From: Variovorax flavidus
GTDB taxonomy: Bacteria; Pseudomonadota; Gammaproteobacteria; Burkholderiales; Burkholderiaceae_C
Assembly (NCBI RefSeq): GCF_030317145.1
Contig: NZ_JASZYE010000001.1
Coordinates: forward strand, 496,001-560,000
DNA: 64,000 nt
Direction of reading: 5' to 3'
Shown here: positions 28,941 through 35,738 of the stretch, one piece after another
How positions within the stretch are numbered: position 1 is the stretch's first letter
Layout of the letters: every line of letters begins with the position of its first letter
Notes under the pieces: model-generated
Seen by the model: only the letters and a program-made list of their open reading frames with translations
Told to the model about the DNA's origin: nothing
Databases searched by the model: none
Made by a program: the position numbers and the translations under genes

Positions 28941-29032
28941 GGGGCCTCCAGGAATTGATCGTTGAACTTCGATTGTGGATGCTGCCGCTCGCAGCCAGAA
29001 TGCACCAAAGTCCAAAAGGATGGAGGACGCCG

Positions 29033-30136
29033 ATGGTGACGAAATCGCTCGCGTGGCGGGGCATCGCGTCGATGTGCCTGGCGCTGTCGTACGTTTCGCC
29101 GGTGGGCGCGGCCGATGGCACTCCAGCGCAAACGCGTCCCTTGCGTGTGGTCACCGGACCACTGGCGCCCTTCGTCTTCAAGCAGGGCGATCAGTACACG
29201 GGGTTCAGCATCGACCTGTGGAACGAGCTCGCGCGCCGGATGCGGGTCGACTTCGTGTGGGTGGATGCAGGCTCGCGTGCCGACCAACTCGACAGCGTGC
29301 CGCGCGGCGACGCGGACGTTGCCATTTCGGCCATCGTGATGACGCCCGAACGCGAACGGATCGCGGATTTTTCGCAGTCCTACTTCGATTCGGGCCTGCA
29401 GATCATGGTCCGCGCCGAGGAGGAGAGTCCCATCCTCGCCATGCTGGCCGCCATTCCGTGGAAGTCCATGGGCAAGCTGTTCGGCGTGGCGATGGTGCTG
29501 GTGTTTATCTGGGCGAACGTCCTGTGGTTCATCGAGCGCAGGCGCGGCGGGAATTCCCGCAAGGGATATGCCGTGGAGATCGGCAACCAGATGTGGAACA
29601 CGCTGCTGATCATCGCCACCGGCGAGCATGGCGAGCGCAGCGACCCTGGGGCGCTGAGGCGCATCGTGATCGCCTGTGTCTGGCTGATGGGCATCGTGCT
29701 GATCACGCAGTTGACGGCGACGGTCACCTCATCGCAGACGGTGCAGCGGTTGCGATCGACCATTGCCGGCCCGGGGGACCTGCCCGGCAAGACCGTCGCG
29801 ACCGTGCCTGGCACCGTCGCGGCAGAGTACCTTGCGAGCATGCACCTGCCCGTGGTCGAAGTCGCGGATGCCGCGGCGGGCATCGAGTTGCTGATGCATG
29901 GCAAGGTGCAGGCCCTCGTCTTCGACGCACCCACGCTGCAGTACTGGGCCGCCAGATCGGGCAAGCACTCGCTGCAGGTGGTGGGCCCCCTGTTCCGGCC
30001 GGAGAAGTACGGCATCGTGGTTGCGCTGGGCAGCCCGCTGCGCAAGCGGATCAACGAGGCATTGCTCGAGGTCTATCAGGATGGGACGTACGAGCAGATC
30101 CACGAGCGGTGGTTCAAGGCGCGGACGTCGTCCTGA
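29033..30136 (+). CDS. Ionotropic-receptor-like ligand-gated channel (bacterial iGluR type)
   Basis: A 367-aa protein with a signal peptide (residues 1-27, cleaved near VGAAD) and a type-3 solute-binding domain split by a membrane unit. S1 spans about 36-140 (LRVVTGPLAPFVFKQGDQYT, DVAISAIVMTPERERIADFS). TM1 is about 147-167, a re-entrant pore segment about 183-202 (GNQMWNTLLIIATGEHGERS), and TM2 about 211-232. S2 is about 240-360 (LPGKTVATVPGTVAAEYLAS, IVVALGSPLRKRINEALLEV). This is the GluR0 arrangement. The pore reads TGEHGERSD rather than the K+ filter TVGYGD, so ion selectivity is open. The ligand is probably an amino acid or similar. Confidence 0.82.
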   Translation: MVTKSLAWRGIASMCLALSYVSPVGAADGTPAQTRPLRVVTGPLAPFVFKQGDQYTGFSIDLWNELARRMRVDFVWVDAGSRADQLDSVPRGDADVAISAIVMTPERERIADFSQSYFDSGLQIMVRAEEESPILAMLAAIPWKSMGKLFGVAMVLVFIWANVLWFIERRRGGNSRKGYAVEIGNQMWNTLLIIATGEHGERSDPGALRRIVIACVWLMGIVLITQLTATVTSSQTVQRLRSTIAGPGDLPGKTVATVPGTVAAEYLASMHLPVVEVADAAAGIELLMHGKVQALVFDAPTLQYWAARSGKHSLQVVGPLFRPEKYGIVVALGSPLRKRINEALLEVYQDGTYEQIHERWFKARTSS

Positions 30137-30138
30137 GA

Positions 30139-30939: not shown

Positions 30940-31040
30940 GGGGACTCCTCTCTTGGCTTCGCGGCTATCCGCGGGGTCGGCGAGCGCAGCGGCCGGCGGC
31001 GCCATAGCATTGGATGATCGCCACTTCGCAAGGGGCCGAC

Positions 31041-31430
31041 ATGACCAAATGGCGCAAGCAGTCTGCATCCGAGGTGTTCACGCCTGAAGAGACCACCGCG
31101 CGGCTCGCCGAAGAGCTGCCGAAGTGGTATTTCGAGGACGGCTGGATTCGACGCAAGTTCAAGACCAGCGGCTGGAAAGGCACGCTGATGGTGGTCAATG
31201 CCGTGGGGCACCTCGCGGAGGCTGCCTGGCACCACCCGGATCTCACGGTGTCCTACGCCTTCGTCACGGTGAAACTGATGAACCACGCCGCCAAGGGCAT
31301 CACCGAGAAGGACTTCGAGCTCGCCAGGAAGATCGAGGAAGTCGTGATGTGGCAACCCGGCGCCGTGGAAGGGTCGTCGCTCGAAGGGACTCCGGACGAC
31401 CCGCGCTTCAAGTACCTGAAGTACGACTGA
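31041..31430 (+). CDS. Pterin-4-alpha-carbinolamine dehydratase-like protein of the H4MPT cluster
   Basis: A 129-aa DCoH-fold protein. The active-site signature is present: AWHHPDLTVSYAFVTVKLMN, then HAAKGITEKDFELARKIEEV. It is longer than typical PhhB at the C-terminus (EGSSLEGTPDDPRFKYLKYD). No phenylalanine hydroxylase gene is nearby. It heads the H4MPT plus-strand block, and DCoH-like genes are repeatedly found in bacterial H4MPT clusters, so a pterin-related role in H4MPT formation is more likely than phenylalanine metabolism. The start ATG at 31041 is favoured over the upstream 31014. Confidence 0.85.
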   Translation: MTKWRKQSASEVFTPEETTARLAEELPKWYFEDGWIRRKFKTSGWKGTLMVVNAVGHLAEAAWHHPDLTVSYAFVTVKLMNHAAKGITEKDFELARKIEEVVMWQPGAVEGSSLEGTPDDPRFKYLKYD

Positions 31431-31595
31431 GCTTTCTGGCGCGGACGCGCGTGGTGACACAGTGTCCTCAACTCGATACAGGTCCGCGCAGGCCCGCCGA
31501 GCCGGGGCGTGACGCTCCGGGAGAAAAGGTCAGCGGAACAGACCTTGCTTTGCAAGCCTTGAGCCACCCCTGCCTTTCAACACGCCGGAAGCACG

Positions 31596-32651
31596 ATGGA
31601 TCGCCCTCGAAATTTTCCCGAAGCGAGCTTCGTCGACCGCCCGGCGACGGTCGCGCTGCGCGCTCCTGCGCGATTGCACCTGGGGTTTCTTGACCCTGCC
31701 GGTTCGCTGGGCCGCAGCTTCGGCAGCGTGGGGCTCGTGATCGGCGGCTTCGAAACGGAGGTCGAGATCAGCGCGTCGCCTGTCGACCGGGTCACTGCGA
31801 ACGGACCTGCAGCCCATGCCGAAATCGAGCGCGCGGCCGCTTGCTTGCGCATGCTGCGAGGCCACACCGGCCGGCGCGATCCGCTGCACCTCAGGCTGGA
31901 GCAGGTATTGCCCGCGCATGCCGGATTCGGATCAGGAACGCAACTGGCGCTGGCGATCGGGCGGGCGTTCGCGCTGTGGCACGGCCTGAGCGTCCCGACC
32001 GCCACATTGGCGCAATGGCTGGGGCGCGGGCTGCGCTCGGGCATCGGCATCGCGGGGTTCGACCACGGGGGCCTGATCGTCGATGGCGGCCCGGGCGCGA
32101 ACGGCGCACCTGCGGCAGTGTTGTCGCGCATTCCGCTGCCCGAAGCCTGGCGCGTCCTGATCGTGCAGGACAGCGCGCAGAAAGGCTTGTCGGGCGACGA
32201 GGAAAGACAGCGCATCGCCAGCCTGCCGCCATTGCCGCGGGCACTGGCCGCCGACATCTGCCATCAGGTGCTGATGTGCGTGCTGCCGGGCGCCGCCGCT
32301 GCGGACTTCGCTCCCTTTGCTGCCGGTGTCACGCGAATCCAGCAGGTGCTGGGCGAGCACTTCGCGTCCGCCCAAGGGGGCCGTGCTTTCGCAAGTGAAG
32401 CGGTGGGTTGCCTGCTCGGATGGGTTCTGCAGCACCGTGGCGAGCATCTCGCTGCCATCGGCCAGAGCTCCTGGGGGCCGACCGGCTTCGCGATCTTCCC
32501 CTCGCAGGCGCGGGCGGAAGCCGCCATGCAGGCCATGCAGGCCGCAGGTGTCGTCGCGCCATCGCTGGCGCTGCGCGTCGTATCCGGCCGCAACGCAGGC
32601 GCCACGCTGCTCGATCGTCGCCCCTCGTCGCCGCTCATCTCGACGCCTTGA
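31596..32651 (+). CDS. Beta-ribofuranosylaminobenzene 5'-phosphate (beta-RFAP) synthase
   Basis: A 351-aa GHMP-kinase-fold enzyme condensing p-aminobenzoate (or 4-hydroxybenzoate in archaea) with PRPP, with decarboxylation, the first committed step toward the arylamine part of H4MPT. Family features: APARLHLGFLDPAGSLGRSF near residue 27, and LPAHAGFGSGTQLALAIGRA near 105, which replaces the GHMP ATP loop. RSGIGIAGFDHGGLIVDGG follows near 148. It equals orf4 of methylotroph clusters and precedes mtdB by 16 bp. Its substrate is supplied by the pabBC fusion at 52989. Confidence 0.92.
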   Translation: MDRPRNFPEASFVDRPATVALRAPARLHLGFLDPAGSLGRSFGSVGLVIGGFETEVEISASPVDRVTANGPAAHAEIERAAACLRMLRGHTGRRDPLHLRLEQVLPAHAGFGSGTQLALAIGRAFALWHGLSVPTATLAQWLGRGLRSGIGIAGFDHGGLIVDGGPGANGAPAAVLSRIPLPEAWRVLIVQDSAQKGLSGDEERQRIASLPPLPRALAADICHQVLMCVLPGAAAADFAPFAAGVTRIQQVLGEHFASAQGGRAFASEAVGCLLGWVLQHRGEHLAAIGQSSWGPTGFAIFPSQARAEAAMQAMQAAGVVAPSLALRVVSGRNAGATLLDRRPSSPLISTP

Positions 32652-32667
32652 TCAACACAGGTTTCTC

Positions 32668-33576
32668 ATGGAACGCCCCTACATCCTCCACATGTTCACA
32701 CCGGGCCGGCAGATGAGCCCGTTCGACATCAACATGGCCGCCGACGCGGGCTACCAGGTCATCGTGCCGTACTGCGAGGTGGGCGCGGACGGCATTGCCG
32801 GCCTCACGCAGGACACGATCTTTTCGCGCAGTCCGAAGGGCCTGCTGCGCACCGGCATCTTCATCGGCGGGCGCGACGTGGTGGAAGCCGCCGACATGCT
32901 CGACCGGGCGAAGGCATCCATGTTCAAGCCCTTCGTCGTGTCGCTGATGGCGGACCCCAGCGGCGCCTACACGACCGCGGCCGCGATGGTGGCTTGCGTC
33001 GAGGCTGCGCTCGCCCGCCACCACGCGAAAGGCCTGGACGGCCAACGTGTCGTCGTCGTCGGCGGCACGGGGCCGGTGGGCCGCATCGCCGGCGTGATCG
33101 CGGCACAGGCGGGCGCCCAGGTTTTTCTCTCCAGCCGCGGCGGTGCCGACGCGGCCGAAGCGGTTGCGCGCGAGACCGGCAAGCGCTTTGGCGTCAGCCT
33201 GGGAGGCGTGGCCGGTGGCGATGCGGCGGCCGTGCGCGCATCGGTCGCCGACGCTGACGTGCTGCTCGCCTGTGCGCCGGCAGGCGTGCAGGCCGTCTCG
33301 GCCGATGTGCTGACCTCGGCCGCGCGGCTCAAGGTCGCGGCCGACGTGAATGCGGTGCCGCCGGAGGGCATTGCCGGCGTCGCCGTGATGGACAACGCCA
33401 AGCCGCTGCCCGACACCGCGGCGGTAGGCATCGGCGCATTGGCGATCGGCAACGTCAAGTACCAGACCCAGCAAAGGCTGCTGGTGCAGATGCATGAGGC
33501 CGAATCGCCGGTGGTCCTGAGCTTTCCAGAGGCGTTTGCCACCGCTCGGGCCTTCATTGCCGAAAAGGCAGCCTGA
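32668..33576 (+). CDS. mtdB: NAD(P)-dependent methylene-H4MPT dehydrogenase
   Basis: A 302-aa cytoplasmic enzyme oxidising methylene-H4MPT to methenyl-H4MPT. The N-terminus ERPYILHMFTPGRQMSPFDI and the dinucleotide loop GTGPVGRIAGVIAAQAGAQV near residue 130 are those of the MtdA/MtdB family. Placement between beta-RFAP synthase and mch matches mtdB rather than the folate-linked mtdA. The start ATG at 32668 removes an artefactual upstream extension. Part of the formaldehyde oxidation route Fae-MtdB-Mch-Fhc. Confidence 0.93.
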   Translation: MERPYILHMFTPGRQMSPFDINMAADAGYQVIVPYCEVGADGIAGLTQDTIFSRSPKGLLRTGIFIGGRDVVEAADMLDRAKASMFKPFVVSLMADPSGAYTTAAAMVACVEAALARHHAKGLDGQRVVVVGGTGPVGRIAGVIAAQAGAQVFLSSRGGADAAEAVARETGKRFGVSLGGVAGGDAAAVRASVADADVLLACAPAGVQAVSADVLTSAARLKVAADVNAVPPEGIAGVAVMDNAKPLPDTAAVGIGALAIGNVKYQTQQRLLVQMHEAESPVVLSFPEAFATARAFIAEKAA

Positions 33577-33594
33577 TCGATCCGGCCATCGACC

Positions 33595-34734
33595 ATGACA
33601 GCGTTGGCCGTCGCTTCCATCTCGGCGCGAGTGCTCGCCGAATCGGCCGTCGACGACGGATTCGAGGTCGTGGCGCTCGATCTGTTCGGCGACGCGGACA
33701 CACGGCGAGCCTGTTCCGAGTGGTATTCGATCGGCGATCCAGCGGACTTGAGCATCGATGGCGCGCGGCTGCTGTCGGCGCTGGAGTCGCTCTCGCAGCG
33801 GCGGCGCGTAGCCGGCTGGATCGCCGGCTCCGGCTTCGAGGGGCGGCCGGATCTGCTGGAGAGCGGCGCGGCGTTGCTGCCGCTGATCGGAACGCAGGCC
33901 GACGCCATGCGGCGCGTGCGGGAGCCGGGGAGCTTCTTCGGATTCCTCGACGCGCGAGGGATCGCCCATCCGGCCGTCCGGATGACAACGCCGGAGGATG
34001 CCGCCGGATGGCTGATCAAGGATGCACACGGCTGCGGCGGGTGGCATATCCGCCGCGTGGAATCGCAGCAGGGCAGGGCGCCATCCGACGCCGTGAGCGC
34101 CCATCACTACTTCCAGCGCGAGGCTTCGGGCACGCCCATGTCGGCGACATTCGTCGCCAATGGACGCGATGCCTCGGTGCTCGGGTTCAACGAACTGATC
34201 GTGCGTCCCCTGGCGGGGCGGCCCTTCGTGTTTTGCGGTGCCGTGGGGCCGGTGCCGCTGCCCGACATCGTGGCCGCCCGAGTGAAGGCCGCACTGCGCG
34301 CACTGGTGGAAGCCTTTTCCCTGCGCGGCCTCGGCAGCCTGGACTTCATGCTGGACGGCGATGCCGTCAGCGTGCTCGAGGTCAACCCGCGGCCGCCGGC
34401 CAGCATGGCGCTTTACGGTCGCGGCATCGTGGCAGCGCATGTGCGCGCCTGTGTACGGGGCAAGCTTGCGCCATGGCCCACGCAGGCAGCGAACGACCCC
34501 GTTCGTGGCAACGAAGTCGTCTTCGCCCCGCGCCGGCTCTGGCTCGATGAGCCCGCCGCGCAACGTCTGGCCGCACGCGCCGGATGCCACGATCTGCCCA
34601 CCGCTGCTTCGGGCTTCGAGGCCGGAGATCCCTTGTGCAGCGTGAGTGCCAGCGGCGCTAACGCCCTGCAGGTGCGCGAGTTGCTGCAGCGTGGCCGCCT
34701 GGCCGTGCATCAATCCCTGGAGTCCACCGTATGA
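33595..34734 (+). CDS. ATP-grasp protein of the H4MPT cluster (orf5 type)
   Basis: A 379-aa ATP-grasp-like protein. The N-terminal domain begins VASISARVLAESAVDDGFEV. The central nucleotide-binding region includes WLIKDAHGCGGWHIRRVES near 140. The catalytic acidic block GSLDFMLDGDAVSVLEVNPR near 248-267 contains the Mg-binding E-x-N. It lies between mtdB and mch, as orf5 does in Methylobacterium-type clusters, and overlaps mch by 4 bp. A ligase role in cofactor assembly is expected, but the substrate is not established. Confidence 0.85.
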   Translation: MTALAVASISARVLAESAVDDGFEVVALDLFGDADTRRACSEWYSIGDPADLSIDGARLLSALESLSQRRRVAGWIAGSGFEGRPDLLESGAALLPLIGTQADAMRRVREPGSFFGFLDARGIAHPAVRMTTPEDAAGWLIKDAHGCGGWHIRRVESQQGRAPSDAVSAHHYFQREASGTPMSATFVANGRDASVLGFNELIVRPLAGRPFVFCGAVGPVPLPDIVAARVKAALRALVEAFSLRGLGSLDFMLDGDAVSVLEVNPRPPASMALYGRGIVAAHVRACVRGKLAPWPTQAANDPVRGNEVVFAPRRLWLDEPAAQRLAARAGCHDLPTAASGFEAGDPLCSVSASGANALQVRELLQRGRLAVHQSLESTV

Positions 34735-35738
34735 CCGATGCCGCGGCGGCACCCCTTGCCGCATCCACGCTCAGCGTGAACACCCTCTCGCGGCCGCTCG
34801 TCGAGCGACTGCTGGCCACCGCCGATGCGCTCGGCGTGCATGCACACCGTGACGGGACCGGTCCCTGCATCGTCGACGCGGGCATCTCCGTCGGCGGCAG
34901 CGTGGCGGCGGGCCTGCTCGTGGGTGAGATCTGCATGGGTGGCCTCGGCCAGGTGAACCTGCGTCCCGACGGAAAAGACGGCTGGCCCACCTGGATCGAG
35001 GTGCACAGCGCACAGCCGGTGCTGGCCTGCCTGGGCAGCCAGTACGCCGGCTGGAGCCTCGCGGCCAGCAAGGAGGAAACGGGCGGCAAGAAATTCTTCT
35101 CGCTCGGCTCGGGACCGGCGCGCGCGCTGGCGACCAAGGAAACGCTTTTCGATGAACTCGGCTACCGCGACCGCGCGGACGCGGGGGTGCTCGTGCTGGA
35201 GGTCGATCGCGAGCCGCCGCAGGTCATCATCGACAAGCTGCTGCGCGATTGCCACTTGAGCGGCGAAGGGCTGACGCTGATCCTCACGCCGACGACCAGC
35301 CTCGCCGGCACCACGCAGGTGGTGGCGCGCGTGGTGGAGGTCGCGCTGCACAAGGCGCACCAGCTGGGCTTCGCCCTTGGCAACATCGTGGGCGGTGCGG
35401 GCTCGGCCCCATTGCCGGCGCCGAGCCACGACGCCGTGGAAGCCATGGGGCGAACCAACGATGCGATCCTGTACGGCGGCCGCGTGCACCTCACCGTGCG
35501 TGGCGAGGACGCGGCCGCCCGCGACCTCGCGAAGCGGCTGCCGTCGAGCAACTCGACCGACTACGGCCGTTCGTTCGCCGACATCTTCACGGCGGCCGGA
35601 TACGACTTCTACAAGATCGACGGCGCCTTGTTCGCGCCCGCCGAGGTATGGGTCAGCAACCTCGACAGCGGCAACACCTGGCACGCCGGCGGCCTGGACA
35701 TGCCCCTGCTGCTGGGCTTGTGGCAAAAGGAGGCGTGA
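34731..35738 (+). CDS. mch: Methenyl-H4MPT cyclohydrolase
   Basis: A 335-aa enzyme hydrolysing methenyl-H4MPT to 5-formyl-H4MPT in the cytoplasm. Recognised by length and conserved blocks: GLLVGEICMGGLGQVNL near 58, SLAASKEETGGKKFFSLGSG near 105, GNIVGGAGSAPLPAPSHDAV near 220, and the end EVWVSNLDSGNTWHAGGLD. It sits third in the mtdB-orf5-mch-orf7 order found in methylotrophs. The ATGA overlaps at its start and a TGATG overlap at its stop imply translational coupling. Confidence 0.95.
   Translation: MTDAAAAPLAASTLSVNTLSRPLVERLLATADALGVHAHRDGTGPCIVDAGISVGGSVAAGLLVGEICMGGLGQVNLRPDGKDGWPTWIEVHSAQPVLACLGSQYAGWSLAASKEETGGKKFFSLGSGPARALATKETLFDELGYRDRADAGVLVLEVDREPPQVIIDKLLRDCHLSGEGLTLILTPTTSLAGTTQVVARVVEVALHKAHQLGFALGNIVGGAGSAPLPAPSHDAVEAMGRTNDAILYGGRVHLTVRGEDAAARDLAKRLPSSNSTDYGRSFADIFTAAGYDFYKIDGALFAPAEVWVSNLDSGNTWHAGGLDMPLLLGLWQKEA

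Follow-up and report, generated by a model that had tools for sequence, protein, structure and literature searches.

In the window, by which we mean the whole 64,000-nucleotide stretch of Variovorax flavidus DNA analysed here, one gene encodes a GluR0-like receptor with the layout S1-M1-P-M3-S2, an assignment supported by family, sequence and structural comparisons. Residues 195-204 of its pore read ATGEHGERSD, and TGEHGE stands where the K+ selectivity filter TVGYGD would be found in a K+-selective relative. On the sequence evidence we lean, with modest confidence, towards the reading that the protein is an amino-acid-gated cation channel with an inverted pore and without K+ selectivity. The gene and the domains of its product are located in the window as follows.

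29033-30136, forward strand: receptor coding sequence of 367 amino acids, with the ATG at 29033 and the stop codon at 30134-30136
29022-29027, forward strand: GGAGGA, a Shine-Dalgarno-like site 5 nt upstream of the ATG, recognised by reading
29033-29110, forward strand: signal-peptide-like region, residues 1-26 (basic residues, a hydrophobic stretch and V-G-A), recognised by reading
29123-29428, forward strand: S1 lobe, residues 31-132 (phmmer match to 2pyy at 35-130; model strands at 37-127)
29459-29542, forward strand: M1 helix, residues 143-170 (AlphaFold model and hydropathy)
29567-29620, forward strand: pore helix, residues 179-196 (AlphaFold model)
29618-29638, forward strand: filter T196-G197-E198-H199-G200-E201-R202, in register with TVGYGDK
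29651-29758, forward strand: M3 helix, residues 207-242 (AlphaFold model), containing TATVT (228-232)
29762-30127, forward strand: S2 lobe, residues 244-365 (phmmer match to 2pyy at 244-365)

The S1-TM-P-TM-S2 layout given in the preliminary description is found alike by Pfam, by a PDB sequence search and in an AlphaFold model. Across residues 39-362 the receptor matches the Pfam family SBP_bac_3 (E 1.5e-28), and according to Pfam, phmmer and AlphaFold this domain is split by the pore into S1 and S2; Lig_chan-Glu_bd is matched at E 1.8e-9 and Lig_chan barely above its cut-off (30.9 versus 30.8 bits), and Ion_trans_2 was not reported in the Pfam scan of the receptor. In the PDB sequence search the top match is 2pyy, the ligand-binding core of Nostoc GluR0 (E 2.6e-44), confined to residues 35-130 and 244-365, that is, to the flanks of the pore; ranked after it are glutamine-binding proteins, then Synechocystis GluR0, with animal delta receptors soon after. 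Two transmembrane helices are visible in the hydropathy profile, and the loop between M1 and P holds five basic and two acidic residues, a balance expected of a loop on the cytoplasmic side.

A monomer was modelled with AlphaFold from an 18-row alignment of the window protein and proteins from related loci (mean pLDDT 82.8, pTM 0.65). The model places the pore helix at 179-196, ending at T196, followed by a loop at 197-206 and M3 at 207-242, with the filter loop among its least certain parts (block pLDDT 63-69), and the signal-peptide-like region is predicted to hold a helix at residues 8-19, at low confidence. The predicted overall fold is that of receptor ligand-binding and transmembrane domains. 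AMPA-receptor chains rank first in Foldseek and span about the whole model; among the best 50 matches listed, they cover 363-397 columns at query-length TM-scores of 0.53-0.68. A structure comparison ordered by Z has an engineered glutamine-binding protein (28.7) and 2pyy (28.4, 212 residues, 2.2 A) tied at its top, both of which match the binding lobes only, and an NMDA-receptor chain, 9ooq_B, reaches Z 26.1 over 324 residues with an rmsd of 9.1 A. Receptor identity, also claimed at the outset, is borne out by Pfam, the 2pyy match, the AMPA-receptor-like fold and the pore profile scores.

These pore scores come from a profile built on 12 TVGYGD receptors, on which M1-P-M3 of all eight TGEHG receptors reaches 44.2-57.3 bits, compared with a best score of 13.9 bits for shuffled M1-P-M3 controls, of which 1,600 were made and 1,588 reported. 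The register of the filter is identical from a 45-row alignment and from this profile: TGEHGE aligns without a gap with the TVGYGD of a K+-filter receptor from the same order, and the replacement of the K+ filter by ATGEHGERSD, as first described, is confirmed. The pore motif goes beyond chance, because the clade that carries it holds without the pore columns and because the profile scores exceed those of the shuffles. After the shared Thr, V is replaced by G, G by E, Y by H and D by E, and the second Gly alone is unchanged; with four of these five positions altered, no K+ filter proper can be formed. At the place of the K+ filter that defines Group 1 of Ger et al., TGEHGE is found. On the alignment, G197 occupies the Q/R/N place, E198 the +1, H199 the +2 and E201 the +4 site, with the last of which the filter Asp of GluR0 is equated in the part of PMC12226733 consulted. 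An acid stands in the +4 column of only 28 of the 44 receptors; within the TGEHG clade it is Glu, or Asp in some members.

Three residues of the ligand pocket can be placed by comparison with the other receptors.

29351-29353, forward strand: R107, with Arg in 41 of 44 receptors and in six of the eight of the TGEHG clade
29924-29926, forward strand: D298, acidic in 41 of 44 receptors and kept in all eight of the TGEHG clade
29336-29338, forward strand: V102, in a pocket column that is Ser or Thr in 38 of 44 receptors

In GluR0, as described in the part of PMC2950845 consulted, the S1 Arg binds the alpha-carboxylate and the S2 Asp the alpha-amino group of the ligand. Val at pocket column 102 is found in the window protein and in its nearest orthologue, from V. 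ginsengisoli, and because it replaces the pocket Ser/Thr, the ligand may be other than glutamate. In two other members of the TGEHG clade (L101 and L102), Gly replaces the carboxylate-binding Arg, and these proteins may for this reason respond to a non-amino-acid or be unliganded.

Eight intact genes with the filter TGEHG[ED]R were found, in Variovorax and a second Burkholderiales genus: the window gene, two of V. ginsengisoli, one each of Variovorax dw_308 and genome G854, and three of genus g322, which belongs to a different Burkholderiales family from the window's. A phylogeny of the pore class, called for in the preliminary description, joins all eight in one clade (support 100/100), whether the pore columns are included or not, and every tree row bearing another filter falls outside it. 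Pairwise identity within the clade has a minimum of 50% and a median of 56%, and 36% of positions 31-365 are invariant across the eight intact members. Invariant runs of four or more residues number nine; TGEHG is among them, as are GDADVA and YFDSGLQI in the binding lobes and, in M3, TATVT (228-232), which is the same in the whole clade and close to the expected gate. The invariance of TGEHG in eight of eight is partly so by definition, because the genes were first grouped by their filter; the clade itself is not. The gene as a whole is under purifying selection, with whole-gene dN/dS of 0.13-0.21 in six pairs, two of them with dS near 2, and 0.21 between the window gene and its 78% identical orthologue. 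By region, and with a P stretch of 21 codons only, the comparison of the window gene with L010 gives 0.11 for S1, 0.22 for M1-P-M3, 0.24 for P and 0.21 for S2, and that with L103 gives 0.29 for M1-P-M3, 0.51 for P and 0.13 for S2, dS of S1 not being computable. The pore is therefore no tighter than the lobes, which speaks against it as the most guarded part of the protein.

A partial copy from Paraburkholderia sp. CNPSo 3274 (L023, 5815-6819), with the pore TGEYGER, has lost S2; no S2 match was found anywhere in the whole 12.6-kb locus, and this copy was excluded before trees were built. Solute-binding proteins among L028-L060 were likewise kept out of the trees, one locus was kept of each duplicate pair (L011/L091, L012/L094, L019/L010, L020/L094, L089/L101 and L093/L021), and tree rows L078 and L088 are near copies.

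By filter, the 44 receptors comprise 12 with TVGYGD, eight with TGEHG, seven with SGK/SGR-like filters and 17 others, including VIGYDD, SGSGE, TQADQM, NGGFEER and TQAGAAQN types; the filters of some relatives are shorter by two residues or so. The TVGYGD relatives of the window protein are 37-40% identical to it. On the tree built without pore columns, the TVGYGD rows are not monophyletic (AU p 3.6e-76), and their distribution takes four changes by parsimony. Our interpretation, on a tree whose root is not fixed, is that the filter was replaced repeatedly while the scaffold stayed the same; the K+ filter is probably old in the family, and exchange of whole pores between receptors may be an alternative source of the variety. 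When 11 relatives of the TVGYGD receptor of G162 are added (of 27 places, the 12 that had loci were taken, and one of these was already present as L062), TGEHG stands beside a TVGYGD clade and an AGQ-type clade at an unresolved fork (SH-aLRT only).

Some of these relatives are of interest in their own right. The SGK/SGR-like class, which we call the SGK group, a name coined in this analysis, is fully supported and spans four Pseudomonadota families (L066, L068, L069, L071, L072, L079 and L105); Lys or Arg is found in the filter of six of its seven rows, and Gln in that of L105. In an Acidimicrobiales metagenome-assembled genome, a 742-residue open frame (L027, 4452-6677) carries an OpuAC domain, a glycine-betaine-type binding domain, fused N-terminally to a TVGYGD receptor with SBP_bac_3, Ion_trans_2 and Lig_chan matches, and this extra binding domain recalls the amino-terminal domain of animal receptors. 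A receptor-like gene whose pore is of the TTGKTSHK type (L121, 1396-2451) lies about 1 kb from an IS66 transposase on a plasmid of Salmonella that is typed as conjugative, and its annotation is that of a binding-domain protein only; the plasmid matches grouped with this observation are H20-H22, with H21 and H22 taken from the match listing.

The gene is rare. At E 1e-25, four of 101 genomes of the genus have a match, with five genes that all carry TGEHG, and the other 97 have none, marking the gene as dispensable. The same threshold gives four matching genomes of 399 in the order sample (two with TGEHG, one with TVGYGD and one with AQAPRM) and 27 of 398 in the phylum sample, with TGEHG in the window's own genome alone; at 1e-30, three of 399 match in the family sample, again with TGEHG in the window's own genome alone, and the family of G702 has three matching genomes out of 43, each with TGEHG. 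The genome samples overlap and their counts are not additive. In the searches made here, the TGEHG class was found only in Burkholderiales; the contig scan leaves its absence elsewhere unproven, because the two exact peptide patterns used are not carried by G702-type members. There was no relative among 67 pattern matches in viral contigs; two phage records have partial S2-like matches, and plasmids gave 63 records, none of which reaches 60% identity, with 23-33% identity in the 23 records that span 80% or more of the query. In two relatives the site is empty.

28983-30138, no strand: segment absent from the syntenic locus of G002, which has 26 bp instead
28989-30138, no strand: segment absent from the syntenic locus of G812, which has 18 bp instead

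In both genomes the flanking SDR and pentapeptide-repeat genes adjoin each other and are 88-91% identical to those of the window. The receptor is an accessory gene, a presence/absence difference of a single gene for which gain and loss are both possible. Base composition is unremarkable and hence gives no sign of recent foreign origin.

At its locus, the receptor gene stands alone. Its neighbours are the SDR gene, the pentapeptide-repeat gene and then genes resembling those of a tetrahydromethanopterin C1 pathway (window 31014-35738: pterin dehydratase-like, GHMP kinase, Mpt_N dehydrogenase, ATP-grasp and cyclohydrolase). Twenty neighbouring proteins were scanned, 10 around the window gene and 10 around five other copies, with some immediate neighbours of those copies falling outside the latter set; no Pfam family is matched by three of those around the window gene and two of those around the other copies. 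The surroundings of the five other copies include TctC at two loci (G854 and G846), a hydantoinase, a lipase, a dioxygenase, an HlyD/M50 protein and DUFs, and no partner gene family was common to all loci examined. Promoter-like sites numbered 0, against 0.3 expected in shuffles, and the two terminator-like sites found both lie within the receptor gene.

In the mechanism that we favour, the protein would form a tetrameric inverted-pore channel in the inner membrane, its S1/S2 clamshell projecting into the periplasm. Closure of the clamshell on an amino acid gripped by R107 and D298 would tug on M3 and so open the bundle crossing around TATVT, and cations would then traverse the G197-E198-H199-G200-E201 filter near the cytoplasmic side. 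The ring of E198 at +1, together with the acid retained at +4 as E201, leads us to expect a non-selective or divalent-permeable cation channel, which H199 may also make sensitive to protons or metals. The earlier suggestion of a different ion selectivity or of pH gating is plausible in view of register and conservation. A bolder version, doubtful at present, is that the TGEHG clade might be a ligand-gated channel, permeable to Ca or to divalent ions, in which four-fold rings of Glu and His occupy the former K+ filter in register, with gating tuned by protons or metals at H199; it would then represent an independent bacterial parallel to the change from K+ to mixed-cation pores in animal receptors.

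How far the pore conducts at all, and what it conducts, divides the main alternatives. The protein could be a non-conducting ligand sensor that has kept the scaffold while its pore is shut or collapsed, and that signals through M3 or a partner protein, much as animal delta receptors signal partly without current. Consistent with this, filter types are diverse among relatives and some are about two residues shorter, a pattern that pore drift could leave behind; the P stretch is no more constrained than the lobes, and His and acidic residues could plug a narrow filter. Yet TGEHG and TATVT both belong to the nine longest stretches without variation in the clade, and a candidate partner gene common to all examined copies is absent, TctC lying near only two of five. 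We regard such a sensor as unlikely, though the strongest of the alternatives. A channel that is still selective for K+, with K+ sites formed by backbone carbonyls in spite of the altered filter sequence, would fit the Thr, second Gly and +4 acid retained in register and the TVGYGD of a nearby clade. It is less probable again, since V, the first Gly and Tyr are all replaced, E198 puts a charge where the K+ filter has a glycine, and a filter change of this kind abolishes K+ selectivity in K+ channels generally.

Two further readings would remove the protein from the channels or the gene from the functional ones. SBP_bac_3 and GlnH models are the best matches, as they would be for a membrane-anchored solute-binding protein of the ABC type serving a transporter, but the insertion of two helices and a P loop inside the binding domain is homologous to receptor pores, and the GlnH-type models of NCBIfam fall far under their cut-offs (GlnH 131.6 versus 303). 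Moreover, ABC permease and ATPase families are absent from the 20 neighbours scanned, which makes the transport-accessory role, named earlier as the finding that would count against a channel, less likely; we consider it very improbable. A plain ABC binding protein was rejected as a candidate on the same two grounds, the pore that interrupts the binding domain and the absence of ABC neighbours among the 20. That the gene is a decaying relic of horizontal acquisition would suit its patchy distribution, the empty site in relatives and the Paraburkholderia copy without S2, and is at variance with the open frame, the Shine-Dalgarno-like site and the dN/dS against the closest orthologue; we give this reading the least credence of all, and a pseudogene was rejected as the main reading in view of the open frame and dN/dS.

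The favoured ligand-gated channel can be set against known receptors. GluR0 (Synechocystis Slr1257) and the Nostoc core 2pyy share with the window protein the S1-M1-P-M3-S2 layout and the ligand-binding Arg and Asp, whereas GluR0 has the K+ filter (PMC2950845 and PMC3483616, both in the parts consulted) and the window protein has TGEHGE, as well as V102 for the usual pocket Ser/Thr. GluR0 is described in part of PMC13099474 as having K+ channel activity and a role in the response to high K+, and as reported there it has been used to rescue E. coli deficient in K+ uptake. In the part of PMC2950845 consulted, Ger et al. (2010) listed 22 prokaryotic receptors with such a topology; a K+ filter was recognised in 12 of them, and the P regions of the other 10 were left unassigned. 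Bacterial receptors without a K+ filter have accordingly been known as Group 2 since 2010, and the remark in the preliminary description that few bacterial members are characterised fits the literature, but this pore is not the first non-K+ one. With Group 2 the window protein shares the receptor topology without a recognisable K+ filter, a likeness drawn from description rather than from sequences set side by side. In the open-licence literature, we found no bacterial receptor with a TGEHG filter in titles or abstract openings, and no recording or flux datum for members of the TGEHG clade. Eukaryotic AMPA, kainate and NMDA receptors share the ligand-binding fold, pore homology at the level of Pfam Lig_chan and the +4 acid. 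They differ from the window protein, which has Gly at the Q/R/N place and lacks an amino-terminal domain and M4: at 367 amino acids it has no space before S1 and no helix beyond residue 361.

In CNG and other cation channels, filters derived from TVGYGD are non-selective through acidic or shortened filters; in comparison with CNG-type channels, the window receptor has the opposite membrane orientation and unrelated gating domains. The question that these findings address is the route by which glutamate receptors passed from K+-selective to mixed-cation pores. In the literature consulted in part, the bacterial receptor that has been characterised is GluR0, a K+ channel. Bacterial receptors hold many filter types, with TVGYGD in only 12 of the 44 compared here, and for the other types no assignment of an ion was found in that literature. 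The TGEHG clade and its TVGYGD relatives constitute a natural swap experiment, in which an exchange of five residues would reveal the role of the filter.
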